A DNA stretch of 64,000 nucleotides from Macrocystis pyrifera (taxonomy: Eukaryota; Sar; Phaeophyceae; Laminariales; Laminariaceae), in the NCBI GenBank assembly GCA_031763025.1, contig JASSKH010000010.1:4397901-4461900 (forward strand). Direction: 5' to 3'. Below, piece after piece: positions 29,121 through 40,883 of this stretch; the stretch's first letter is position 1, and each line of letters starts with the position of its first letter. Below the pieces are notes generated by a model that saw only the letters and a program-made list of their open reading frames with translations, was not told the DNA's origin and ran no database searches. The position numbers were made by a program, and so were the translations under genes.

Positions 29121-29276
29121 TACTACAGCAGCACATGAACAAAAACGAAAAACATGACGACATTTCAGAGGTACGTACGTACAAAATAAGGCCACTCGTA
29201 CTACAGCAGCACATGAACAAAAACGAAAAACATGACGACATTTCAGAGGTACGTACGTACAAAATAAGGCCACTCG
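29121..29276 (+). repeat. perfect 78-bp tandem duplication
   Basis: Two identical 78-bp units, 29,121-29,198 and 29,199-29,276, each containing GGTACGTACGTAC. Identity implies a recent duplication or assembly of a slippage product. Confidence 0.93.
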
Positions 29277-29531
29277 TACTGAAACCAGAGAAATCGTCTT
29301 GTCCACTCCCGCCGAAAAAAAAAAAACTTTTGAGCGCCGGCCACGAGCTTCAGAGTGCACAGATCGCGCCGAGACCTAGACCAATGTGTCCGGCCGGGTT
29401 TCCCGTGTCCGAGTACTTAATTTTTTGCCGAAAAGTGCTCGTGCGAAGAGAAAAGTTGGCAAAAAAAGTACGAAAATTTGGTAAACACACGTATACATAT
29501 TAATCGTAGTAGCAACATTCGAGGGTACTAC

Positions 29532-30052
29532 TGTTACAGCAGGGTACAGCTCTCAGACCCTAAGAAGGACCTGCGCTCGTTAGATCTCTGAGGCCGGCTC
29601 ACCTGTTGTTTGGGAGTTCGAGGAAGTGCCTTCAAGCAGTAATGATCAGGTCACGCAAAACGTGGATCGATGCGATGCGGTAGATGCAAGCAGTCAGCGT
29701 GAACACTCAACGAAGCACCACAGACACGATGACGGGCACGACGGGCAAGGCAGGGCCCAAGGGGATGGGGGTCGATAGGACAGGTATCACAGATCACTTG
29801 GCTTTGACTTTCTTTCTTCTCTTGGTGGTGTTTAGTAAACACCGGGTGGTCCCGGAACCTCATTACTGGCTCTGTACCCGAGACCGAAGGCGTTCCCACA
29901 CCGGGGATCCTCCCTGCCCCTATAAGATCCGCCCAGAGGATGCTAATCAAAGCTTGCCCTCTGCCTATCGAATAGACCCGACGCGCGACACTGATCAGAA
30001 CAGCTGTCTCACGCCGTATTATCCTCCTCGAAGCACTGTCGGCGCTGCAACA
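29532..30052 (-). repeat. 3' LTR of element 3 (left copy)
   Basis: On the minus strand it starts TGTTGCAGC and ends GCTGTAACA. Identical to 40,278-40,798 by eye. The minus strand carries a weak TATA-like CTTATAGG at about 29,920-29,928. Confidence 0.96.
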
Positions 30053-30064
30053 CCCCCCCTGCCC
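30053..30064 (-). other. polypurine tract of element 3
   Basis: On the minus strand GGGCAGGGGGGG directly precedes the 3' LTR. Only about 120 bp separate it from the integrase ORF stop. Confidence 0.8.
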
Positions 30065-30173
30065 GACGCAGCATGCGCCGGAGCAAAACGGGCCCCCCCA
30101 GCAGCCGAATGCTTCTTCTTCCCCTCTGCTAATCGGCTCACCGCTTCCGTTCCCCGCTTGTTGCTGACGGGGG

Positions 30174-33100
30174 TCATCTCTGGCCCGCGGTGCTCCGGTG
30201 TTCCTCGATCCCGCGAGTCACTTCGCTGCGGTTAAGCTCCTCCCAATCTCCGTCAGGGTATCTCACTCGCCAATACGGCTCCCTAAAGTCGTACACCTTT
30301 CCTACCGCCGCTCGACTCACCCCATCAGCTCCAGCAAACGACCGCCTGACCTGCGTCCCCGTCGGAAAGTCCTGCAGCGCTCTCGTTCGCACCCCCTGGT
30401 CACGCTCTTCCTTCGGTAGTGGTTCCGGCGGCCGGGGGCGGCAGTCCTTTCCCTTGTACACTTCCCAGAGGGCATGGAAGACGTCGAGTTGCAGAGGGGT
30501 GAAGCTGTCCCTCACTTCCTGTTCAGGTAGCCACTCTGACTCCACCCCACTTTGGTACCGGCCTCGGTACTGCCATTCCCACCCGGTCCCCGTGCTCTCC
30601 ATGGCTCGCCGGTCCGTCAGGGTATAGAGCGGCACCGCCACCGTCGAGGTGTCTGCCAACCCCAAGTCCGCGCCCCATGCCAGATGCGCGAATTCGTCCT
30701 CGAAGGCATGGCGCAGATGCTCCGGCCGCACGTGAAACTCCTTAATGTTGGCAGCCGAAACCGTTCTCCTCCGGGTCCGGCGGCCGCTCATTGTCGCCTG
30801 GTAGCTGATACCCGGCTGTGCAATGGCCGTCACCCGCCACGGCCCCGTCCAGTGTTCATGTGCCAGTTTGACGTGAGTGCCCTCCCGCGCCATCTTGCTG
30901 TCTGCCTCCTTTACCAGCATCAGGTCTCCCACTCGCGCCCCTTCGCCTGGAGAGTGTCGCCTAATGGCCGCATTGTGGCGTACGCGTCGCTTGTTCTTGT
31001 CCTCCTGACGCTTCTTCAGCATTGCCCGCAGTTCCACGAACGTCTGGTGTCTCTCCGCCACGAAATTGTCGAGCCCAGTGCGGAAATTTTCTCCGTCCAG
31101 CGCAGGAGTAAGAGCATCCAGGTTTGTGCGCGCATCACGGCCAAACAGAATCTTGAAGGGCGTCCCACCTGACGGGAGACGCGGGTCCGGCGTAGTTCTT
31201 TGAATCCAGCAAGCCGCGCTTACATATTCGTCCCACCTTGCCGGCCAGGATTTGCAAAGCTCTGCCAAGACCTCCTGAAGCCAACCCCCCATCCTTTCTA
31301 CGGCTCCTTGACTACGAGGGTGGTCCGCAGGACCATGATCCAGCTCCACCCTGAGCCACTGGCACAGGTGGGCGACCACCTTAGCGGTGAACTCCCCCCC
31401 GGCATCGCTCCTAATCGACAGCGGCACGCCAAACGTGAGCAACAGCTCCAGGAGTTTCCTCGCCACTCCCACCGAATCCTTAGACTCCAGCGGGTACGCA
31501 AACAGGAACCGGCTGGCCCGATCCACCACTACCAGCAGGTACCTATTTCCTGCACTGGATACCTGCTTCATGTCCTGGAGGTCCATCTCAAGCACTTCCC
31601 AAGGCCACAATAACCGAGCAGGCATCATGGCCACGCGTTGACTCCGGGCCCTTTTTCTCCTCCTGCAACCGCACGACAGTACGTACTCCCTGACGTCCTG
31701 GGCTACTGTCGGCCATCTGTACTTGCCCTTAATCAGCAGCAGGGTCCGCGCAACTCCCGGGTGGCCATAGGTACTGTGCACGAGTGCCAGCACCCCTGGC
31801 ACTAATGCTCTCGGAATGGCCAACTTCGGTGCCTCTCCCCGAGGCGCGCTCCACAATAAGTCGTTGTCGTCGAGAACGTAGTTCGCCGTCCCTTCCGGTG
31901 ACTGCCTGTCACCTCTTCCTCGCAATCGGCCCCAAATGGGGCCAAGTCGCGCGTCCTCCCGTTGCCGTTGCACCAGCCGTGGCTTATCACGCAACACTTC
32001 CGCTACCTGGTCGACCATGGAAGGAAGGGGTCCCGGGTATTCCGAGTATTCCGCTCTCGGTGCTCGCCGCCTCGGCTGGGGCTGTGCTCTGGACTGTGGC
32101 GGCGAGTTTTCCGTGGGCTGTATCTGCGATGCCGACGGCAGTGCTGTCGGGGTCGTCTGTGTAACAAGCGGCCTTGGCACCTGCGCATGCTGTTCTGTTG
32201 ACCTTCTTCCCGCTACGCCCGCTCTGGACCTCGTGACCGCCGGCGTTACTTCGGCTATGTCCTCCTCGAAGAGCGCCTGCAAGCCTTCCAGCGATTTAGT
32301 TCCGTGAAGCTGCTTCCCCCTGGCTTTTTCTATCAACAGCCCCTTTGCCCACAACCCCGACAAGGCCTCTCTCGCCATAGGTGGCAATGAAAAGTCCGCC
32401 AATATCGCGGCCGCTGCTCCCCTGCTGACGGTTGGGGGCACTCGGTAGTCCGCTCGTCCGGTGGCGAGTTTTTTGTATTCCGCAAAAGTCAGCTCGTCTG
32501 CTTGGTCGATATCGCTTGCGTCCGAAGGGTGCGGTATGTACGTTCCTTCGGGGGGTTTCTCTCCCATAATGTGCGTTCGAGTGATGGAAATGATTGGATC
32601 ATCAAAAGAAAAGACCCCCCTCTCTTCCACGCCTCGCTTGAGGAAGTAGGTTCCCCTCCTCCCCAAGAATCTACCTAGAGATGTGCACCCTGGGTCGCGC
32701 TTTTCTATATCCCTCCTCCACTCTCTCAGCCTCTCACCTTCCCTTTCGGGCCTCCCGCTCCTCACGCCGACAGCGAACGCCTTCCTCTTCCCCGACGGAA
32801 CCCCCACGATGTCCGCCGCCATTTCGACTGTCTCCACCGTACACGCCGCTTCCTTCAACGCAGGCAGCACTACCTGCCCCCACTCCGTCGATCGAAGTAA
32901 ATTCGGGTAGCATTCCAGCAGGAGAAGCCTGGCCGTCGAATCAATGAAGGCCCTCACGATATTCGTTGCCAAGGTTGCTGCTCCACCGGGCCCCCGCTGG
33001 CCTGACGTTCTGGATGCATCTCCCATCACGACGCTCGGGCTCAAGTCGTTCAAGAGCCTTTTGCAATCTTCCCCCCCTGGTTCCGCTCTCACCAGTCGAA

Positions 33101-33194
33101 CTCCTTGGTCCAACCCGTTCTCCCTAACGCACTCGAGCGCTCTCCAGTCGTGGTCGGTGGCACCCTTGACTGCGACCATCTCCTTCGCCGCCAT
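30174..33194 (-). CDS. methyltransferase-like, integrase, chromo/Tudor-like ORF of element 3
   Basis: 1,006 codons from the first ATG; the frame is open further upstream past the G10 run, so the true N-terminus is probably supplied by a -1 shift from the preceding pol ORF. Residues 1-290 match the C5 cytosine methyltransferase layout: motif I completed by the upstream G run, an ENV-like LLECYPNLL (VI), ADIVGVPSGKRKAFAVGVR (VIII) and a motif-X-like SLPPMAREALSGL. Motif IV, normally PCxxFS, reads GDASRTS, so the catalytic Cys appears to be Ala. Integrase follows: zinc site HSTYGH...CGC (about 472-505) and DDE in LEMDLQD (537), IRSDAGGEF (595), QGAVERMGG (631). A GPW variant of GPY/F lies near 783, a chromodomain-like YRGRYQSGVESEWLPE near 870 and a Tudor-like WRVRYPDGDWEEL near 970. 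Confidence 0.93.
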   Translation of the reverse strand: MAAKEMVAVKGATDHDWRALECVRENGLDQGVRLVRAEPGGEDCKRLLNDLSPSVVMGDASRTSGQRGPGGAATLATNIVRAFIDSTARLLLLECYPNLLRSTEWGQVVLPALKEAACTVETVEMAADIVGVPSGKRKAFAVGVRSGRPEREGERLREWRRDIEKRDPGCTSLGRFLGRRGTYFLKRGVEERGVFSFDDPIISITRTHIMGEKPPEGTYIPHPSDASDIDQADELTFAEYKKLATGRADYRVPPTVSRGAAAAILADFSLPPMAREALSGLWAKGLLIEKARGKQLHGTKSLEGLQALFEEDIAEVTPAVTRSRAGVAGRRSTEQHAQVPRPLVTQTTPTALPSASQIQPTENSPPQSRAQPQPRRRAPRAEYSEYPGPLPSMVDQVAEVLRDKPRLVQRQREDARLGPIWGRLRGRGDRQSPEGTANYVLDDNDLLWSAPRGEAPKLAIPRALVPGVLALVHSTYGHPGVARTLLLIKGKYRWPTVAQDVREYVLSCGCRRRKRARSQRVAMMPARLLWPWEVLEMDLQDMKQVSSAGNRYLLVVVDRASRFLFAYPLESKDSVGVARKLLELLLTFGVPLSIRSDAGGEFTAKVVAHLCQWLRVELDHGPADHPRSQGAVERMGGWLQEVLAELCKSWPARWDEYVSAACWIQRTTPDPRLPSGGTPFKILFGRDARTNLDALTPALDGENFRTGLDNFVAERHQTFVELRAMLKKRQEDKNKRRVRHNAAIRRHSPGEGARVGDLMLVKEADSKMAREGTHVKLAHEHWTGPWRVTAIAQPGISYQATMSGRRTRRRTVSAANIKEFHVRPEHLRHAFEDEFAHLAWGADLGLADTSTVAVPLYTLTDRRAMESTGTGWEWQYRGRYQSGVESEWLPEQEVRDSFTPLQLDVFHALWEVYKGKDCRPRPPEPLPKEERDQGVRTRALQDFPTGTQVRRSFAGADGVSRAAVGKVYDFREPYWRVRYPDGDWEELNRSEVTRGIEEHRSTAGQR

Positions 33195-36058
33195 GAGACC
33201 ACCTCCCCCCCCCCGCAGCAGAGCACCACGGCGACTGGATGCTCCTCGGCTGCGGAAGTTGTGGCGGCTCTCTCAGTGTCTGCGTCGACGGCTCCGCCTG
33301 GGGTAAAAATTACGCTTGCCGCAACCGCCGCGTTTTTTCCCGTTGGCTTGTTCACCTCGTCTGCCCCCAGTTCGCTGAGCAGTACGCCGTCGAGCACCGG
33401 TCCCTTGGGGCCCCGGTACGTGGTCCTCGTGGAGGGATCGTCTGGGAAGGAGTCATCGATGTCCGTGCGCGGCGCGTCGTTCGGCGGCAGCCTCGAGAGG
33501 GCGTCCGGCAGCTGGTGGTTTGCCCCCGGTCGCCACTGGAGGTCGATGTCGTGCTCCATCAACCTGAGCGCCCACCGGTGGAGTTTCGACGAGAGGGCCT
33601 GGCTCTTGAACAGCCACGTGAGCGCGGAGCAGTCGGTGAACAGAACGAATCTCCTTCCCCACAAGTACGGTCTGAAATGCTGGATGGCCCACAACACTGC
33701 CATCACCTCTAGCTCGGTTGCGGACCGTTTGGCATCCGTCCTTGACCACCGGTGGCTCGCGTATCCAACGACACGTTCCTCTCCCCTGGTGTCCTGCGTA
33801 AGCGCCGCTCCCGCACCCAGCTCGCTGGCGTCCGTATGCAGTTGAAACGTGGCCTCCCAATTGGGCAACGCCAAAATCAATGGCGATGTGAGGAGCTCGA
33901 TCAGCGCCTTCAGAGCCTTGTCCTGCTCCACCCCCCACGGCACCCGGAGCCTCCTTGCCTTTTTTGACGCGAACCGCTTGTCCCTGAGTAGGTCCGAGAT
34001 AGGCGCCACGATCGAGCTGTATCCGGGCACAAACTTCCTGAGGTAGCTGCCCATGCCCAAAAGTGACCTGACCTCCTCTACCGTGTTAGCGCGAGAGAGT
34101 CTGGCCACCGCTTCTATCTTCGTTTTTGACGGTTGCACGCCCAGTCTGCTGACAACCATGCCGACGAACTCCTGCTGCGGAGCGCACCAAGTCGATTTGG
34201 CCAGGTTCACCGACAACCCAAATTGCTGGAGCCGCGCCAGCACCTTCTCCACCAGATCCACATGTCCCTCGACGTGTTTGGTGTGGATGATGATGTCGTC
34301 AAGCCAGTTCTGCACGCCTTTTCCTTTTAGCGGACCCAGAGCCTCCCCCACATAGGCCGCGAAGCCGGAAGGAAGGGTCTTCAGCCCAAAACCGCACCGG
34401 TTGAATTCCCACAGCTCCCCATGGGCGTCACGAAACGCGGTCTTGTGCTTGTCTTCCTCGGCAATTTCCAACTGGGTGAAACCTGACGCTAGATCAATGG
34501 ATGTGAAGCACGTGGCGCCCCTCATGTTGTCGAAGATGCTTGCGATATCCCCCAGCCCTCCGCTATTGGACTCCAGCAGCGCGTTCAGCCCTCGATAATC
34601 CTGACAGACCCTCGCCGTGCCATCCTTTTTTGCCACAACGACGCAGTTTGCTGCCCACGCTGACTGCGACCGGCGAATCGTCCCCGCTTTCTGTTGCTTC
34701 GCCACCTCGCTCTGGATCATGGCCGTTTCCTCCGGCGAATACCGTCGCTGTTTTGCTGCGTGGGGCGTGCAGCTGTTGTCAGTCAGCGGAAGCTGCAACT
34801 TAGCTCGATTGCAGGCCGGGACAATCTTCGGGTTCACCGGGAACACATGGCGGTACTTCTCCAACGCTCGAATCAGGGCTTCCTTCACTGGGGCACTCGT
34901 CTGAGCGATGTTGGCCAACGACAAGTCCACCCCGTCGGCGTCCGCCCCCTCACCTGCGCGTTCCTCCGGCGCCACCAGCACTGACTGTTCCTTCATCTCC
35001 GATGTGCCTTCTGCCTGCACGACGGGGTCTAATAGCATCCGCATCCGTTCCTTGTCCCTCGTGTTGACGGCGTAAATCCGAGCAACGACCCCGCCCTGCT
35101 TCAGCGCTAAGGGTACTTTTGAACGGTTCACCACTTTGCACTGGAGCGGCGTTCCGGGGTGCCACCACTGCGCCCCGCGCGCGATCCCCAACTCTGCCCC
35201 CGTCTCCATGTCGTATGAAGCCTTCGGTTCCACTACCACCAGCTGCCTGTCTTGGGGCTGGACTCCCTTGGCATAAGCATCCACCTGCGCGCTGACGAAA
35301 CCCGGTACCACCGTATGTCGGGCTGGACGTAGTTCCCATTGTAGGGTGCCATCGTCCTCCCAGGCCGCTGAGCCCTCGCTTAGTTGTGTGCGCGGCTCGG
35401 TTATTTCCGCCGGCTCTCCCTCTCCACAGGGTGGCTTGACGGCGCAAAATTGCTCCCACGTTGCCGCGTTCCCGGTCGCCACTGGCTCCACTTCTGCCCT
35501 GCTCGGTTGGACAGACGCCTGCCAGCTCACCGCCTTCCGCTCCGCCACCTTTGACGAGGAGGCTCCCGTTGACGAGATGAAGGGCACCCAAGGTGACTCT
35601 GGTGCCGGTTTGAAACCTCCCCCGGCCGCGAAGCTGATAGTGCTGCCATTCTTTCTCAGGAACGCCGCTCCTATGATAAGGCCGTACGGGAGGTCCTCCA
35701 CCACCCGCACCAATACCTTGCGCACCCTGTCCTCCGGGCTGAACACCAGCGGGAGCTCGCACGACCCGGAAATTTTCATTGGCGGGACTGCGCTGCCCGT
35801 GGGGTTGGCTGCCCTCAACCACCCCTGTCCCCTCGGGCTCATCATCGATTGCCCCCCTCTTCCACTGCGTTCGACGGAGCGTACGAATGCCGCGGAAGAG
35901 TAATTTCCACCCCCTGCCCCCGTGTCGACCAGCACCTCCACTGGAATGCGGCAACTGGTTCTGGTGTGGTGCCACACGAATGCGCGCACCCACACCTGCT
36001 TAGCCCCCGCTCCCACGGCTGCCACGCTGCTTGGGGTGTCCACATCTAGGGCGCTCAA
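33089..36058 (-). CDS. protease-reverse transcriptase-RNase H ORF of element 3
   Basis: 989 codons counted from a TTG that is merely the first start-like codon. The frame is open back to the gag TGA at 36,233, so it is probably made by readthrough. Aspartic protease site LVDTGAGGG lies near residue 47. RT has VCQDYRGLN (about 485), FTSIDLASGF (about 520) and the catalytic box NWLDDIII (about 586), a W-for-Y variant with both Asp kept. RNase H has LHTDASELG, TELEVMAVL, FTDCSALTWL and DALSRLP. After RNase H the frame reaches VAVVLCCGGG, the start of a methyltransferase motif I, then becomes unlike that family and stops at 33,089. It overlaps the next ORF by about 100 bp in the -1 relation. Confidence 0.93.
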   Translation of the reverse strand: MSALDVDTPSSVAAVGAGAKQVWVRAFVWHHTRTSCRIPVEVLVDTGAGGGNYSSAAFVRSVERSGRGGQSMMSPRGQGWLRAANPTGSAVPPMKISGSCELPLVFSPEDRVRKVLVRVVEDLPYGLIIGAAFLRKNGSTISFAAGGGFKPAPESPWVPFISSTGASSSKVAERKAVSWQASVQPSRAEVEPVATGNAATWEQFCAVKPPCGEGEPAEITEPRTQLSEGSAAWEDDGTLQWELRPARHTVVPGFVSAQVDAYAKGVQPQDRQLVVVEPKASYDMETGAELGIARGAQWWHPGTPLQCKVVNRSKVPLALKQGGVVARIYAVNTRDKERMRMLLDPVVQAEGTSEMKEQSVLVAPEERAGEGADADGVDLSLANIAQTSAPVKEALIRALEKYRHVFPVNPKIVPACNRAKLQLPLTDNSCTPHAAKQRRYSPEETAMIQSEVAKQQKAGTIRRSQSAWAANCVVVAKKDGTARVCQDYRGLNALLESNSGGLGDIASIFDNMRGATCFTSIDLASGFTQLEIAEEDKHKTAFRDAHGELWEFNRCGFGLKTLPSGFAAYVGEALGPLKGKGVQNWLDDIIIHTKHVEGHVDLVEKVLARLQQFGLSVNLAKSTWCAPQQEFVGMVVSRLGVQPSKTKIEAVARLSRANTVEEVRSLLGMGSYLRKFVPGYSSIVAPISDLLRDKRFASKKARRLRVPWGVEQDKALKALIELLTSPLILALPNWEATFQLHTDASELGAGAALTQDTRGEERVVGYASHRWSRTDAKRSATELEVMAVLWAIQHFRPYLWGRRFVLFTDCSALTWLFKSQALSSKLHRWALRLMEHDIDLQWRPGANHQLPDALSRLPPNDAPRTDIDDSFPDDPSTRTTYRGPKGPVLDGVLLSELGADEVNKPTGKNAAVAASVIFTPGGAVDADTERAATTSAAEEHPVAVVLCCGGGEVVSWRRRRWSQSRVPPTTTGERSSALGRTGWTKEFDW
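33205..33214 (-). promoter_or_regulatory. G10 run at the ORF junction, candidate -1 frameshift site
   Basis: Ten consecutive G on the minus strand, read GGG GGG GGG G in the RT frame. Moving back one base here leads into the methyltransferase/integrase frame, which is open across the run. The protein motif it encodes (glycines of motif I) is shared by both sides. Programmed slippage, a one-base deletion, or a homopolymer assembly error would all look alike. Confidence 0.6.
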
Positions 36059-36202
36059 CGCGAAGTTGCTGTACTGCTGCGCCGGGGCGCCCTCGTCGTT
36101 GTTGGCGCCGCCCCCACCCTTTGTCGAAGCGGCGTCGTAGGTACTGCGTCTCGCCTCCTCTTCCTGCCGACCCCGCGTTTGTTGCTCACTTTGGCTGCTG
36201 TT

Positions 36203-36225
36203 CCCCAGGAAAGAACCTCCTGGGG
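36203..36225 (-). promoter_or_regulatory. stem-loop after the gag stop, candidate readthrough signal
   Basis: On the minus strand CCCCAGGA, a 7-nt loop GGTTCTT, and TCCTGGGG form a perfect 8-bp stem. It starts 7 nt after the TGA stop of gag (36,233-36,235). Gag and pol are in the same frame with no other stop between them. This resembles the gammaretroviral arrangement, in which a structure about 8 nt downstream promotes stop-codon readthrough. Confidence 0.6.
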
Positions 36226-36232
36226 CGCGTCT

Positions 36233-38128
36233 TCAGGCCCGCAAGACACGCGAGGCGCCTGCGGCTGCCCCGCCCTCCTCGGCCGTGTACGCGCTCAGCA
36301 TTTCGAGTGCCGTCAGCATACCAGGCTCTAGCTGCAGCGCTTGCGTCGGGGTGGTCTTGCGGGGGTACAATCCGTACGGCACGATGTCCTCGTCGTGCGA
36401 GAAGCGGCACCTTCCTCCACCGGCAGCGCTCTTGTGGGGGCAGTCGGAACCCCTCGCATGAAAAAAACAGACCCTACGCTGGCGCAAGGCGTTGATAATC
36501 ACCCTGTCTTCGGCATCCGGGCTCGGTAGCTCGTCCCATTCCTCCCTGTGGTCCGTTGTTTCTCGGTTGCTACTGCCCGGGCGGTCGTTTCTGCCACCTT
36601 TGCGGCGTACAAACGGGGTTCCATGTGCACCCGGGGTGGAAGCGCGGACGTTGGAAAAGGACGCGACGTTTGAGCGATCGTCGACAGCTTCCTCCTCCAC
36701 GTCCTTTCCCTCTTCCTCCTCGCCCTCCGAGGATAATTCCCCGTCTACCGCAGCCAGCGCCGCGCACGCGCTGTCCCGGAGCGCCTCTACCTTCTTCCTC
36801 CACGCCTTGGGTAGTTCCCTGGTGCGCTGTTTACCTCTTTCCTCCCATTCCTCCCTCGACGGAAACCCCCTCGTCTCGTTCTGCCCCAGGGGCAGCCGCT
36901 GACTCTGGGTTAGCCCCGCTACGCTGCCTCGGCTCCGTCCCGTCAGGGGTGCCACGGCTAGGGGGTAACGACTGCACCGGGTGAGCAGTGCATTGATCAA
37001 GCCGTAGAATATGCCGTGAGAGACTTCTCCGCGGTGTACCATGTACGGATCCAGAGGTTTACCGGCGTCCACGTGTACCGGAGTAAGATATTGCTTAACC
37101 TCAGTTCCCACCTGGATAAGGAGGGATTCCATCCCATTGCGATCGGAGGCGCTGGTAAAGAATAGATTTACCGCTCGTTCACAGAGCTCTGCCACCTTCC
37201 TCCCCGACACATACCTCCAAAAGTGGACCTCTTCCGACGTGTGCGGCCTCGCCTCGTCTGCTGTTGCCGCGCGAACATGCAGCACCAGCCGGCGGGCTGC
37301 GGCCATCCACGACTCCCCTTGGATGAGCTTTATCTCCGTGAGTGCCGCCTCAGCCCTCTTCTGCGCCTGCCCTGAATGCGCTACCTCGGCTACCAGGATC
37401 CGGCACCACTCCTTCGTCGTGACTTCCTCGAAGGGAATGTGGCAAAAACCCCCTTGTACGAGAGGTACCTCCACCGTAGAGTGCGGGCGCATCAGATCGC
37501 GTGTCGCCAGGGTGTCCGCGATGAGCTTTCCAAAGCACTCGACTCTCCACGGCGTCAGCCTATCTGCTCGGGGCCGGGCAGGATTGATCCCGTCGGTGGA
37601 GAACTGGTCTTGGGGCATGGCCCACGCCGCCCCCTCGACCTGTGACATGATCTTAGTAAGCTTGTCGACGAACAGCACTGGATCGTTCCTCCATGAGAGC
37701 TCGCCCTGCGGTGCCACAACCAGTCCCACGAAACCATCTTGGCCTTTTATCAGTCCCATGTCGCCTACGATCTTGCTCACGACCCTTTGGGCCTCTTTCG
37801 AACTGCTGGGTTCCAATGCCCCCAGGTGAGTTGCGGTCTGTGGCGGTGCTACCCCCGTCGGTTGGGGCGTCTGTGCGTGGCTCGACTGCCAGATCCAGGG
37901 GGTAGGACGGGGGTAGTGCTGGTATCGTGCTCCATGCTGCCCGACGTATGCTGATGGTGCGGGCTGAGGCTGGCGTAACGTTTGCGCATGGGGCACCTGC
38001 GTGGGCGAGTAGTGTGCGCGAGAATACCCCCCCCCCATGTTACCCAGACTCCATGGATGCGCTGCGTAGCCAATCGGGTGTGGTGCCAGGCTTGTTGCCG
38101 GTGCCGAGCGTAGTGGCTGCGCCGACAC
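36233..38128 (-). CDS. gag of element 3
   Basis: 631 codons from a GTG that is only the first start-like codon; the true start may lie upstream, through the CAG tract. It has a Pro/Gln/Tyr-rich N-terminus, a helical capsid-like middle without a motif I can name, a Glu-rich acidic patch (about 490-510), and near residue 560 a CCCH-type finger (CFFHARGSDC...CRFSH) in place of the usual CCHC knuckle. A G10 run at 38,027-38,036 codes glycines after NM. It ends in TGA, in frame with pol. Confidence 0.85.
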   Translation of the reverse strand: MSAQPLRSAPATSLAPHPIGYAAHPWSLGNMGGGYSRAHYSPTQVPHAQTLRQPQPAPSAYVGQHGARYQHYPRPTPWIWQSSHAQTPQPTGVAPPQTATHLGALEPSSSKEAQRVVSKIVGDMGLIKGQDGFVGLVVAPQGELSWRNDPVLFVDKLTKIMSQVEGAAWAMPQDQFSTDGINPARPRADRLTPWRVECFGKLIADTLATRDLMRPHSTVEVPLVQGGFCHIPFEEVTTKEWCRILVAEVAHSGQAQKRAEAALTEIKLIQGESWMAAARRLVLHVRAATADEARPHTSEEVHFWRYVSGRKVAELCERAVNLFFTSASDRNGMESLLIQVGTEVKQYLTPVHVDAGKPLDPYMVHRGEVSHGIFYGLINALLTRCSRYPLAVAPLTGRSRGSVAGLTQSQRLPLGQNETRGFPSREEWEERGKQRTRELPKAWRKKVEALRDSACAALAAVDGELSSEGEEEEGKDVEEEAVDDRSNVASFSNVRASTPGAHGTPFVRRKGGRNDRPGSSNRETTDHREEWDELPSPDAEDRVIINALRQRRVCFFHARGSDCPHKSAAGGGRCRFSHDEDIVPYGLYPRKTTPTQALQLEPGMLTALEMLSAYTAEEGGAAAGASRVLRA

Positions 38129-38151
38129 CCGTTGTTGCTGGTGTGCTGCTG

Positions 38152-38249
<98 letters not shown>

Positions 38250-38333
38250 CTGCTGCTGGTGCTGCTGCTGCTGCTCTGCTGCTGCTGCTGCTGCTGGTGC
38301 TGCTGCTGGTGCTGCTGCTGCTGCTGCTGCGGG

Positions 38334-38384
<51 letters not shown>

Positions 38385-38530
38385 TGCGGCAGCTGCTGCT
38401 GTTGCTGTGGCAGCTGCTGCCTCTGTTGTGAGAGGTGCTGCTGCTGCTGCTGCTGGTGCTGCTGCTGCTCCTGCTGCTGCTGCTGCTGGTGCTGCTGCTG
38501 TGCTGCTGCTGCTGCTGCTGCTGCTGCGGG

Positions 38531-38578
<48 letters not shown>

Positions 38579-39203
38579 TGCGGCAGCTGCTGCTGTTGCT
38601 GTGGCAGCTGCTGCCTCTGTTGTGAGAGCGACGACGGCCGTTCCCTTTGATGTTCTGGCGACGGGGACTGTTGCTGGCTCCGTACCGACCTCCCCTTCTT
38701 GCTGCGGCGGCGGCTCTCCCGGGGTGCACTGCTGTGGCTGCTGTGGCTTCGGCGGCGACGGCGTGCCTTTTGATCGCGGCCGCGACTGCGGTGGCGGCTT
38801 CGTTCCTTGCTGTCGCGGTTGCGGCCGTGGTGAAGACGGCGGCGTTCTTGGCTATCGCGGCTGTGGCCACGGCGGCCGCTGCGTTTTTTTTTTTTCCGTC
38901 GCTGCCCCGGCCTCGGCGGCTGCGGCGCTCGCTGCTGTCGCGGCTACGGCTGCGTCGGCGTTCCTTGTGGTCGCGGCCGCGACTGTGGTGACGACGGCGG
39001 CGTTCTTGGCTAGCGCGGCCGTGGCCACGGCGGCCGCTGCGTTTTTTTCTGTCGCTGCCCCGGCCCCGGCGGCTGCGGCGCTCGCTACTGTCGCGCCGCT
39101 CCTGCCCGCTGCTAGAGCGGCGGCCACGGCTACGAGGACCGCTATCCTCCCGCTCCTGGTCGCGACCACGGCCGTAGTTACGAGATGGGTAGGGTTCGCC
39201 CAT
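38040..39203 (-). CDS. Arg/Ser-rich ORF upstream of gag in element 3
   Basis: 387 codons. The N-terminal third is rich in RS, RR and SR repeats (RRSRRGRGSDRKKRSGRRG appears almost twice), like the RS domains of splicing factors. A poly-A run on the minus strand (T12 at 38,884-38,895 on plus, against T7 in the first repeat copy) shifts the second repeat into Ala-rich sequence. Poly-Ala and poly-Gln from the CAG tract follow, and the ORF stops at 38,040 just before the G10 run. Relative to gag it is one frame off. It may be the broken N-terminal part of gag, or a separate leader protein. Confidence 0.5.
38145..38632. repeat. nested CTG/CAG expansion in element 3
   Basis: About 490 bp of nearly pure CTG (plus) with interruptions. 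A block of about 110 bp (GGTGCTGCTG... GTTGCTGCGGCAGCTG... CTGCCTCTGTTGTGAGAG) occurs twice, at about 38,323-38,432 and 38,519-38,628, so a triplet expansion was itself duplicated. It reads Gln, Ala, Ser or Leu/Cys depending on frame. Confidence 0.93.
38815..39100. repeat. tandem repeat of about 165-190 bp in the Arg/Ser region
   Basis: The stretch around GGCGGCGTTCTTGGCTA, GCGTTTTTT and CTGCGGCGCTCGCT occurs twice in tandem (about 38,838-38,980 and 38,995-39,100). The copies differ in the T-run length (12 against 7). Confidence 0.75.
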
Positions 39204-39384
39204 GCCCTCCCCCTCCTACGCTGTGGACGCGTTCGAGAAGATGACCGCTGTTGCTGCGGTTACCACCGCGGTCCTGGTCGTTGTCACTCCCCCGGTCGCT
39301 GCTGCTACGAAATGGCCCGTCGCCCCGCGTACTGCCTCCTTCGCCGGAACGGACGTCCTCGTTGGTGGCGTGGCTGTCGTCCAT
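39178..39384 (-). CDS. short N-terminal ORF before the Arg/Ser ORF
   Basis: From ATG at 39,384 (MDDSHATNEDVRSGEGG), 68 codons, acidic then Ser/Arg/Asn-rich. It overlaps the start of the Arg/Ser ORF in another frame near GGGGGAGGG. Composition is similar to the following ORF, so it could be the real gag start with an indel at the G-rich stretch. Confidence 0.35.
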   Translation of the reverse strand: MDDSHATNEDVRSGEGGSTRGDGPFRSSSDRGSDNDQDRGGNRSNSGHLLERVHSVGGGGHGRTLPIS

Positions 39385-40277
39385 GTTTCTCCAATTTCCT
39401 TCCCTTTCCTTTCTGCGGTCTGCTGTACGGTTTACCCTGCGTGTACGCTCGGGGCATTGTATGACCACACAGAAAAAGGAGAAAAAAAAAAGGAAAGGAC
39501 ACATGTATGTGGTTGTATTTTGAACATATATTCACATGCGGTCAACATCGTTCACAGCCCTTGTGTTATTTGAGATTGTCTGCGTGTCAGGTGGGAAAAA
39601 AAAAATAGTGTTAGTGTTTTCAAATTCTTGGTCCATGCTTGGCCTGAAAGCGAGTTACGTGTTCGTAAAAAAAAAAATGTGTTATAAATGACCTCGCTCT
39701 TGGACGGCATCAGTACAGCAATAGGTTCTACATGATTGGTTACCGGTGTCACCTAACCCGGGCGAACGGCATACGAGACTATGCATGTATCAGTACGTAC
39801 GGCGCCTTTGGTCTGTCGACACCTGTCGTGTGCATTTGTTTTTGAAGATTATATGTGGTCAATAGCATGCAGTCATTTATTAACGAACGTGCATGTGTGT
39901 GAACATGTACAATGAGCAGGCAAACGAGCACGGGCAACAGGCAGACGGAGCACGAGCAACGAGTATGCCTGCATGCATTGACCGAGCACATATCTTCAAA
40001 GCAATACAGAACGAACAGGCGAAGCGCCGTTGGCAGCGTGCACACATAACAGCATTGCAAGTATGGCCATAATGCCAGGCGGGCAAAACAAAAACATGCA
40101 TACGAATGTGGGTGTACGAGAGTGTATATGACTAATATACGAGATCAATGTGAGGTGACGCATGAGCATGCATGATAGCATCATTCCCCCGATTTTGCAA
40201 ACTCTTCGGATCCCCTGCAACTGTTTTGCAGACACTCCGATCTCCTGCAATGCACTTCGATCAGCCTGGGTTCATCA
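39385..40277 (-). other. 5' leader of element 3
   Basis: About 0.9 kb between the 5' LTR and the first ORF, without a recognisable gene. Directly after the LTR the minus strand reads TGATGAACCCAGGCTG, the place of a primer-binding site, but it does not match a tRNA end that I know. Confidence 0.6.
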
Positions 40278-40798
40278 TGTTACAGCAGGGTACAGCTCTC
40301 AGACCCTAAGAAGGACCTGCGCTCGTTAGATCTCTGAGGCCGGCTCACCTGTTGTTTGGGAGTTCGAGGAAGTGCCTTCAAGCAGTAATGATCAGGTCAC
40401 GCAAAACGTGGATCGATGCGATGCGGTAGATGCAAGCAGTCAGCGTGAACACTCAACGAAGCACCACAGACACGATGACGGGCACGACGGGCAAGGCAGG
40501 GCCCAAGGGGATGGGGGTCGATAGGACAGGTATCACAGATCACTTGGCTTTGACTTTCTTTCTTCTCTTGGTGGTGTTTAGTAAACACCGGGTGGTCCCG
40601 GAACCTCATTACTGGCTCTGTACCCGAGACCGAAGGCGTTCCCACACCGGGGATCCTCCCTGCCCCTATAAGATCCGCCCAGAGGATGCTAATCAAAGCT
40701 TGCCCTCTGCCTATCGAATAGACCCGACGCGCGACACTGATCAGAACAGCTGTCTCACGCCGTATTATCCTCCTCGAAGCACTGTCGGCGCTGCAACA
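40278..40798 (-). repeat. 5' LTR of element 3 (right copy)
   Basis: Identical to 29,532-30,052 on base-by-base reading. It is followed outward by the CTAC duplication. Confidence 0.96.
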
Positions 40799-40883
40799 CT
40801 ACAGAGCCACCGGGGCGACAGGCTACTATTAATATCAACACCAAAGATACCAAGTGACAGGTTTTTTACACCCTAACAGACAG

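Follow-up and report, generated by a model that had tools for sequence, protein, structure and literature searches.

Within the window, by which we mean the whole 64,000-nucleotide stretch of Macrocystis pyrifera DNA that was analyzed, a Ty3/gypsy LTR retrotransposon carries a segment of about 300 amino acid residues between RNase H and integrase. We consider it probable, at roughly two chances in three, that this segment is a captured C5-cytosine methyltransferase domain that has become a non-catalytic, constrained part of Pol, likely a cofactor- or nucleic-acid-binding module beside the integrase. The initial annotation of this DNA had proposed a C5-methyltransferase-like domain at this place. 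A derived domain of that kind is what the profiles and many copies support, whereas the working enzyme that the proposal implied does not stand, as the PCQ motif is missing.

The element occupies 29532..40798 on the minus strand and was delimited by its identical LTRs, target-site duplication, and pol domains. The two LTRs are 521 nt long, run from TG to CA, and show no difference between the 5′ copy (40278..40798) and the 3′ copy (29532..30052), suggesting that the insertion is recent. Reading of the flanks gave the target-site duplication CTAC at 29528..29531 on the left and 40799-40802 on the right. An exact 78-nt tandem duplication lies just outside the element at window positions 29121-29276. 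On the minus strand, the coding part begins with a gag-like ORF of 872 amino acids (36233..38851), which has a long poly-Gln/Ala/Ser simple sequence at its N-terminus and a CCCH-like finger, CFFHARGSDCPHKSAAGGGRCRFSH, near its C-terminus; this ORF gave no Pfam match at E ≤ 0.1, and no CCHC knuckle of the usual pattern turned up when it was scanned for one. Pol ORF 1 (33089..36232; RVT_1 and RT_RNaseH) contains the protease motif DTGA (DTGAGGGNY), reverse transcriptase (RT), RNase H (33554..33937; PF17919/PF17917), and the start of the methyltransferase-like domain. That domain (32352..33238), supported by hhalign and phrog_363, continues into pol ORF 2 and is followed by the H2C2 zinc-binding domain of the integrase (31653..31817; PF17921), the integrase (INT) core (31317..31598; PF00665), and a weak match to a C-terminal Tudor-like domain (30216..30359; PF21743, E 2.6e-4), which at 21.2 bits is below the curated cutoff of 27.2. 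The LTRs, the short duplication, and the order protease-RT-RNase H-INT are those of a Ty3/gypsy element.

Homology of the segment was assessed by comparing profiles with hhalign. The C5-methyltransferase profile used for this had seven rows, M.HhaI and six phage enzymes. Against it, a 17-row profile of the element family scored 58.5-59.6 over 146 columns, and motifs I to VIII aligned in order. Controls for the 17-row profile were far lower: 60 column shuffles had a mean of 14.5 and a maximum of 20.4, the reversed profile scored 15.9, and a 5-row adenine-methyltransferase profile gave 12.1-14.9. The P0002 row in these runs lacked motif I, and with a longer P0002 row that includes it the score was 59.4. 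Five unmodified open-frame sequences alone scored 53.0 (maximum of 100 shuffles, 23.2), and the rows of family 1, to which the window element belongs, and of family 2, some of them read-through, separately found the same C5 region with scores of 38.7 and 36.5, respectively. An 88-row element profile scored lower, at 42.2 (maximum of 100 shuffles, 20.7). When single C5 enzymes (n = 7) were compared with the element, the scores ranged from 13.0 to 38.2; two of the seven, L073 and L075, were no better than the element's own RT (13.7) and INT (17.0) and are thus at background.

The signal was unevenly distributed along the segment. Motifs VI-VIII carry most of it, scoring 45.1 alone, and motifs I-IV alone scored 21.1-21.9, with a maximum of 19.2 among 100 shuffles of that piece; the motif I-II part aligned to motifs I-II of M.HhaI and was weak when scored alone. 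A two-row alignment (score, 44.6) reached position 294 of the 327 residues of M.HhaI, and the C-terminal half, when taken alone with the peptide proposed as motif X, gave no score of its own. This peptide, SLPPMAREALSGL, is where it had been placed (32352-32390, minus strand), but its assignment to motif X found no statistical support of its own. A family-conserved stretch at 32550..32612, FSFDDPIISITRTHIMGEKPP, resembles a target recognition domain (TRD) by eye only, with no independent profile score. As a whole, the comparisons point to a remote relationship with C5 enzymes that spans motifs I to VIII.

Searches of profile and sequence databases gave a mixed picture. In a scan of PHROGs, a library independent of these profiles, phrog_363 (DNA methyltransferase) was the top match for all six element sequences, with E-values of 9.2e-4 (the best) and 0.067 for the unmodified sequences P0001 and P0002, 0.18 for L003, and 2.1e-5 and 0.038 for the read-through rows L051 and L052; L009 was the sixth. 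The phage C5 enzymes L069 and L076, used as positive controls, matched phrog_363 at 7.4e-55 and 1.7e-36. A phrog_363 search of the whole genome returned two matches at E ≤ 0.1, namely, an exon of the host DNMT2 and a family-2 copy (E 0.097). The Pfam DNA_methylase profile, which the initial annotation had put forward as a check, went against it: PF00145 matched none of L003, P0001, P0002, L009, and the read-through L051 and L052 at E ≤ 10, single-frame copies included, and none of the window ORFs at 0.1, whereas L069 matched at 4.4e-99. Searches with the segment returned no NCBIfam match and no PDB sequence below E 0.39, and none of the 13 pattern matches in an IMG/VR scan encodes a relative. 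The weak PDB matches, among them mitochondrial RNase P with the best E of 0.39, were regarded as chance matches.

These results leave some room for a different origin, in which the segment would be a lineage-specific domain with another Rossmann-like or unknown fold, its motif order having arisen by chance or convergence. The silence of Pfam, NCBIfam, and PDB, the unmatched C-terminal half, and the two single C5 sequences at background would all be expected on such an account. However, the profile score far exceeds those of the shuffles and of the adenine-methyltransferase profile, motifs I, VI, and VIII and the motif IV place occur in order, and phrog_363 heads the PHROGs matches in six of six cases, which makes a non-C5 origin unlikely. 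From its sequence, the segment is likely a remote relative of the C5-cytosine methyltransferases.

The motifs themselves indicate what kind of relative this might be. All of the peptides quoted in the initial annotation were located on the minus strand where it had put them. The glycines likened to motif I and the Asp/His/Asp stretch after them were borne out, because CGG...TDHDWRAL.C, covering the glycine-rich loop of motif I and the acidic end of strand 2 in motif II, is invariant across five sequences and aligns to motifs I-II of M.HhaI. The M.HhaI stretch concerned holds cofactor contacts. Family comparison showed the motif II region, TDHDWRALEC.R.N (33117..33158), to be the most conserved stretch; the mean number of identical residues among five sequences, one row of which (L052) is read-through, was 4.47 for motif II, 3.93 for motif I, 3.38 for motif VIII, 3.00 for motif IV, and 2.64 for motif VI, compared with 3.02 overall.

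The catalytic motifs have fared differently. The motif IV position, PSVVMGDASR (33009..33038) by alignment to C5 enzymes, is without PCQ and reads GDASR in family 1, GHACR in family 2, GNTSR in P0002, and GNVG in P0001. No PCQ was seen in the 65 printed rows for copies of the element, which stand for 59 distinct places and are in some cases gapped or garbled at this motif, nor within the domain of any of 83 database proteins, many of which are fragments missing these motifs; the sole PCQ string among these proteins is in the proline-rich linker of P0003. Similarly, ENV was found in none of the 83 proteins, many being fragments. The peptide suggested to stand where ENV is expected, LLLLECYPNLL (32895..32927), does align to the motif VI position, and the E is kept in family 1 (LECYPNL), in P0001 and P0002, and in a few family-2 rows, including L054, but ENV itself is lost, and most family-2 rows read LQCTSHL without the E. 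The proposed motif VIII, VGVPSGKRKAFAVGVR (32760..32807), aligned in order, and GVPSGKRKAF, GVPYNRKRTY, and GVPSTKRKTF retain the pattern of GVPQxRxR, although the Gln has gone. As none of the sequences examined has PCQ and one family has also lost the Glu of ENV, the segment can likely hardly perform canonical 5-methylcytosine chemistry. A working methyltransferase of the usual kind was rejected on the state of motif IV in these sequences.

A methyltransferase that is still active with changed chemistry or a changed target, such as RNA, protein, or another base, would combine a kept cofactor pocket with a different catalytic residue. Motifs I-II being the most conserved part of a segment under constraint would suit such an enzyme, as would the Cys in the family-2 GHACR near the motif IV place. 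The motif IV and VI positions, however, vary among families in the residues given above, with E or Q in motif VI, so that no shared replacement catalytic residue was seen, and we hold an enzyme of this kind to be improbable. The CpG ratio was 0.915 in the element and 0.947 in the segment, compared with 0.994 elsewhere in the window, and this small depletion speaks against 5-methylcytosine only. The motif pattern appears to be best read as that of a pseudoenzyme whose cofactor pocket has been retained, because PCQ has been lost from motif IV and, in one family, the Glu from motif VI, while the TDHDWRAL.C stretch is the best kept.

In the host genome, a PF00145 search found one locus, at C193:13118874-13122797, comprising two exons (L077 and L078) of a DNMT2-like gene that carry the motifs PPCQ, ENV, and TFTKGYG; the initial screen of this search let through just two candidates, so that others may have been missed. 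The retrotransposon domain is invisible to a genome search with Pfam DNA_methylase, and such censuses can therefore miss similar domains. Brown algae are described, in the accessible part of one report (PMC13076208), as lacking DNMT1, DNMT3, and DNMT5, with DNMT2 excepted. Schizocladia is reported to have retained both DNMT1 and 5-methylcytosine. Against a simple picture of no methylation stand a Saccharina japonica methylome with approximately 1.4% of cytosines methylated, a low 5-methylcytosine level (PMC6916402), and the mention of DNMT1 orthologues in early-branching brown algae (PMC12344493), both as given in the accessible parts of these papers.

Selective constraint on the segment was compared with that on its neighbors in Pol. 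The pN/pS ratio of the segment, pooled over 34 copies, was 0.43, compared with 0.40 for RT-RNase H and 0.27 for INT. This is a DNA-level count against L003, for which 38 of the 41 loci given were matched, the family 2 loci L009-L011 being the probable misses, and four more were dropped because one of the three regions was covered to no more than 60%. As the counts include neutral changes after insertion, the ratio understates constraint. For RT-RNase H, the segment, and INT, respectively, the values were 0.60, 0.32, and 0.25 in the 14 youngest copies and 0.38, 0.45, and 0.27 in the 20 older copies. The segment is thus constrained about as strongly as RT. A captured domain without function, decaying in Pol as a passive relic or spacer, might be suspected from the loss of catalytic residues and from a sister family that manages without the segment. 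Yet the segment's pooled ratio differs little from the RT value for these copies, stops summed over the 34 copies numbered 21 in its 302 codons as against 39 in 422 for RT and 30 in 380 for INT, and 48 columns are invariant among five divergent sequences; we consider a relic quite improbable.

The segment is present in many copies and in at least two families of the M. pyrifera genome. A search for other copies in the host, which the initial annotation had suggested, gave 98 matches with the window segment as the query, pieces of one copy being counted separately, and the P0002 segment gave at least 153. A profile search of the database, in which 8000 candidates were scored, found 80 proteins among the matches listed. 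By contrast, three sister gypsy families of the M. pyrifera genome, represented by four loci (L084, L085, and L086/L087), lack the segment. The RNase H tail motif in L084-L087 is the same as in the carriers, and the methyltransferase-like segment is missing. With tblastn, the best E-values of five segment queries on these loci were 0.07 to 1.2, and a family profile search of them gave no matches, whereas four carrier loci used as a positive control were matched at E 8e-139 or better. The gap from the RNase H tail to the integrase is 219 residues in both L086 and L087 and 248 in L085, compared with 554 in L003. In L086/L087, the RT is 72-73% identical to that of the window family, and the flanking linker is kept on both sides.

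A tree of RT and INT, rooted on L085 by choice and with INT only in the P0001 row and RT only in the P0002 row, placed the carriers in a clade with a support of 96; L086/L087 fell inside it, beside P0001, with a support of 48. The simplest account of this tree is one gain and one loss; given the chosen root and the poorly supported node, other histories are conceivable. Family copies lacking the segment had been named in advance as evidence that would count against the domain. Such copies turned up in sister families only. None came from the family of the window element, for which the segment itself had served as the search query.

The two pol ORFs of the window copy overlap across a long homopolymer within motif I (33205..33214, minus strand), and the initial annotation had joined them by a −1 step. 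Comparison of run lengths and of the open frames of other copies identified this join as a homopolymer lesion instead of a frameshift mechanism. In four other copies, an open frame of 1459-2019 amino acids runs across the domain without a stop, P0001 and P0002 read through the homopolymer site in one frame, and the run length is unlike that of the window in all 15 other distinct places matched by a script pattern (28 loci given). Among the 98 genome matches, 55 start at query residues 17-21, where the frame common to the copies starts, 15 start at residues 1-3, where the window's shifted frame matches upstream too, and 28 start further in. Because other copies are single-frame, the pol frame break is a lesion of the window copy and not a mechanism of the family; it is perhaps a recurrent one, given that the C212 copy has the same 1032-amino acid stop-free second ORF as the window copy. 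Programmed −1 frameshifting within motif I, regulating production of the integrase half, has in its favor the overlap across the homopolymer and the 15 of 98 matches in which the upstream shifted frame recurs, but against the shared frame start, the single-frame copies, and the variable run length it is barely credible. The single-frame copies refute it for the family as a whole.

The preferred reading, a captured domain turned into a non-catalytic part of Pol, may be set out as follows. The ancestor of one gypsy lineage would have captured a C5-cytosine methyltransferase domain and placed it between RNase H and integrase, as suggested by the profile comparison, the tree, and the sister families without the segment. 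The domain would then have lost canonical catalysis, with the loss of PCQ and, in one family, of the ENV Glu, and it is retained in Pol under purifying selection, presumably without a catalytic role. Since the motifs of the methyl-donor pocket are its best-preserved part, it has most likely kept the ability to bind AdoMet or the product of AdoMet, and it probably binds nucleic acid. Its specific role in Pol is a guess: it might serve a structural or binding purpose beside the integrase in cDNA handling or integration and, together with the C-terminal Tudor-like domain, might form an integrase assembly that contacts chromatin and DNA. The more pointed suggestion, that a brown-algal retrotransposon lineage keeps a cofactor- and DNA-binding pseudoenzyme ahead of its integrase to steer or gate integration, is tentative, and we would put it at clearly less than even chances.

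If that suggestion is true, the pseudoenzyme would be what remains of C5 DNA methyltransferases in a clade from which their loss has been reported, the host lineage being described in the accessible part of PMC13076208 as devoid of DNA cytosine methyltransferases with the exception of DNMT2. Capture of working DNMTs by retrotransposons is known already; in the kelp element the catalytic residues have been lost, yet conservation is at about the level of RT. The element offers a testable case of a selfish element turning a methyltransferase into a non-catalytic module, and for comparison one genome holds sister families that carry the domain and others that lack it.

A degenerate C5-methyltransferase domain in brown-algal elements was unreported among the literature matches listed, a search that took in subscription papers and preprints only in small part. 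In the accessible description of Gypsy-10_Ec32 from Ectocarpus (PMC12477816), a brown-algal gypsy element has a C-terminal Tudor domain, for which the match in the window element is weak, and that description mentions no methyltransferase-like domain; the two elements are likened by description. Gypsy-10_Ec32 has a homologue in Tribonema. Capture of DNMTs by gypsy, DIRS, and LINE elements has been published, with functional residues conserved, according to the accessible text of PMC5890265, and the initial annotation was right in recalling that algae are among the reported cases. KnitGypsy-Dnmt3 of Klebsormidium nitens is, on the same partial text (PMC5890265), also a Ty3/gypsy element with a C5-methyltransferase-type domain in Pol under purifying selection, but its domain is recognizably Dnmt3 with conserved functional residues, whereas the kelp domain is invisible to Pfam and has no PCQ. 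SymbioLINE-Dnmt and SymbioDIRS-Dnmt3 of Symbiodinium are likewise retrotransposons with captured DNMTs, and they differ, as far as that text (PMC5890265) goes, in being LINE and DIRS elements with conserved key residues in a host that is mostly CG-methylated. The kelp element therefore does not join the retrotransposon-borne DNMTs with conserved functional residues, since its domain, although it lies in Pol, has lost its catalytic residues. The host DNMT2-like gene belongs to the same C5-methyltransferase superfamily, a likeness read from motifs, but differs in that its catalytic motifs are present. DNMT3L is a catalytically inactive relative of the DNMTs that has retained a function, namely, the regulation of DNMT3; it is a host protein, whereas the kelp domain is part of a retrotransposon polyprotein, and the PF00145 search of the kelp genome gave the DNMT2-like locus alone.
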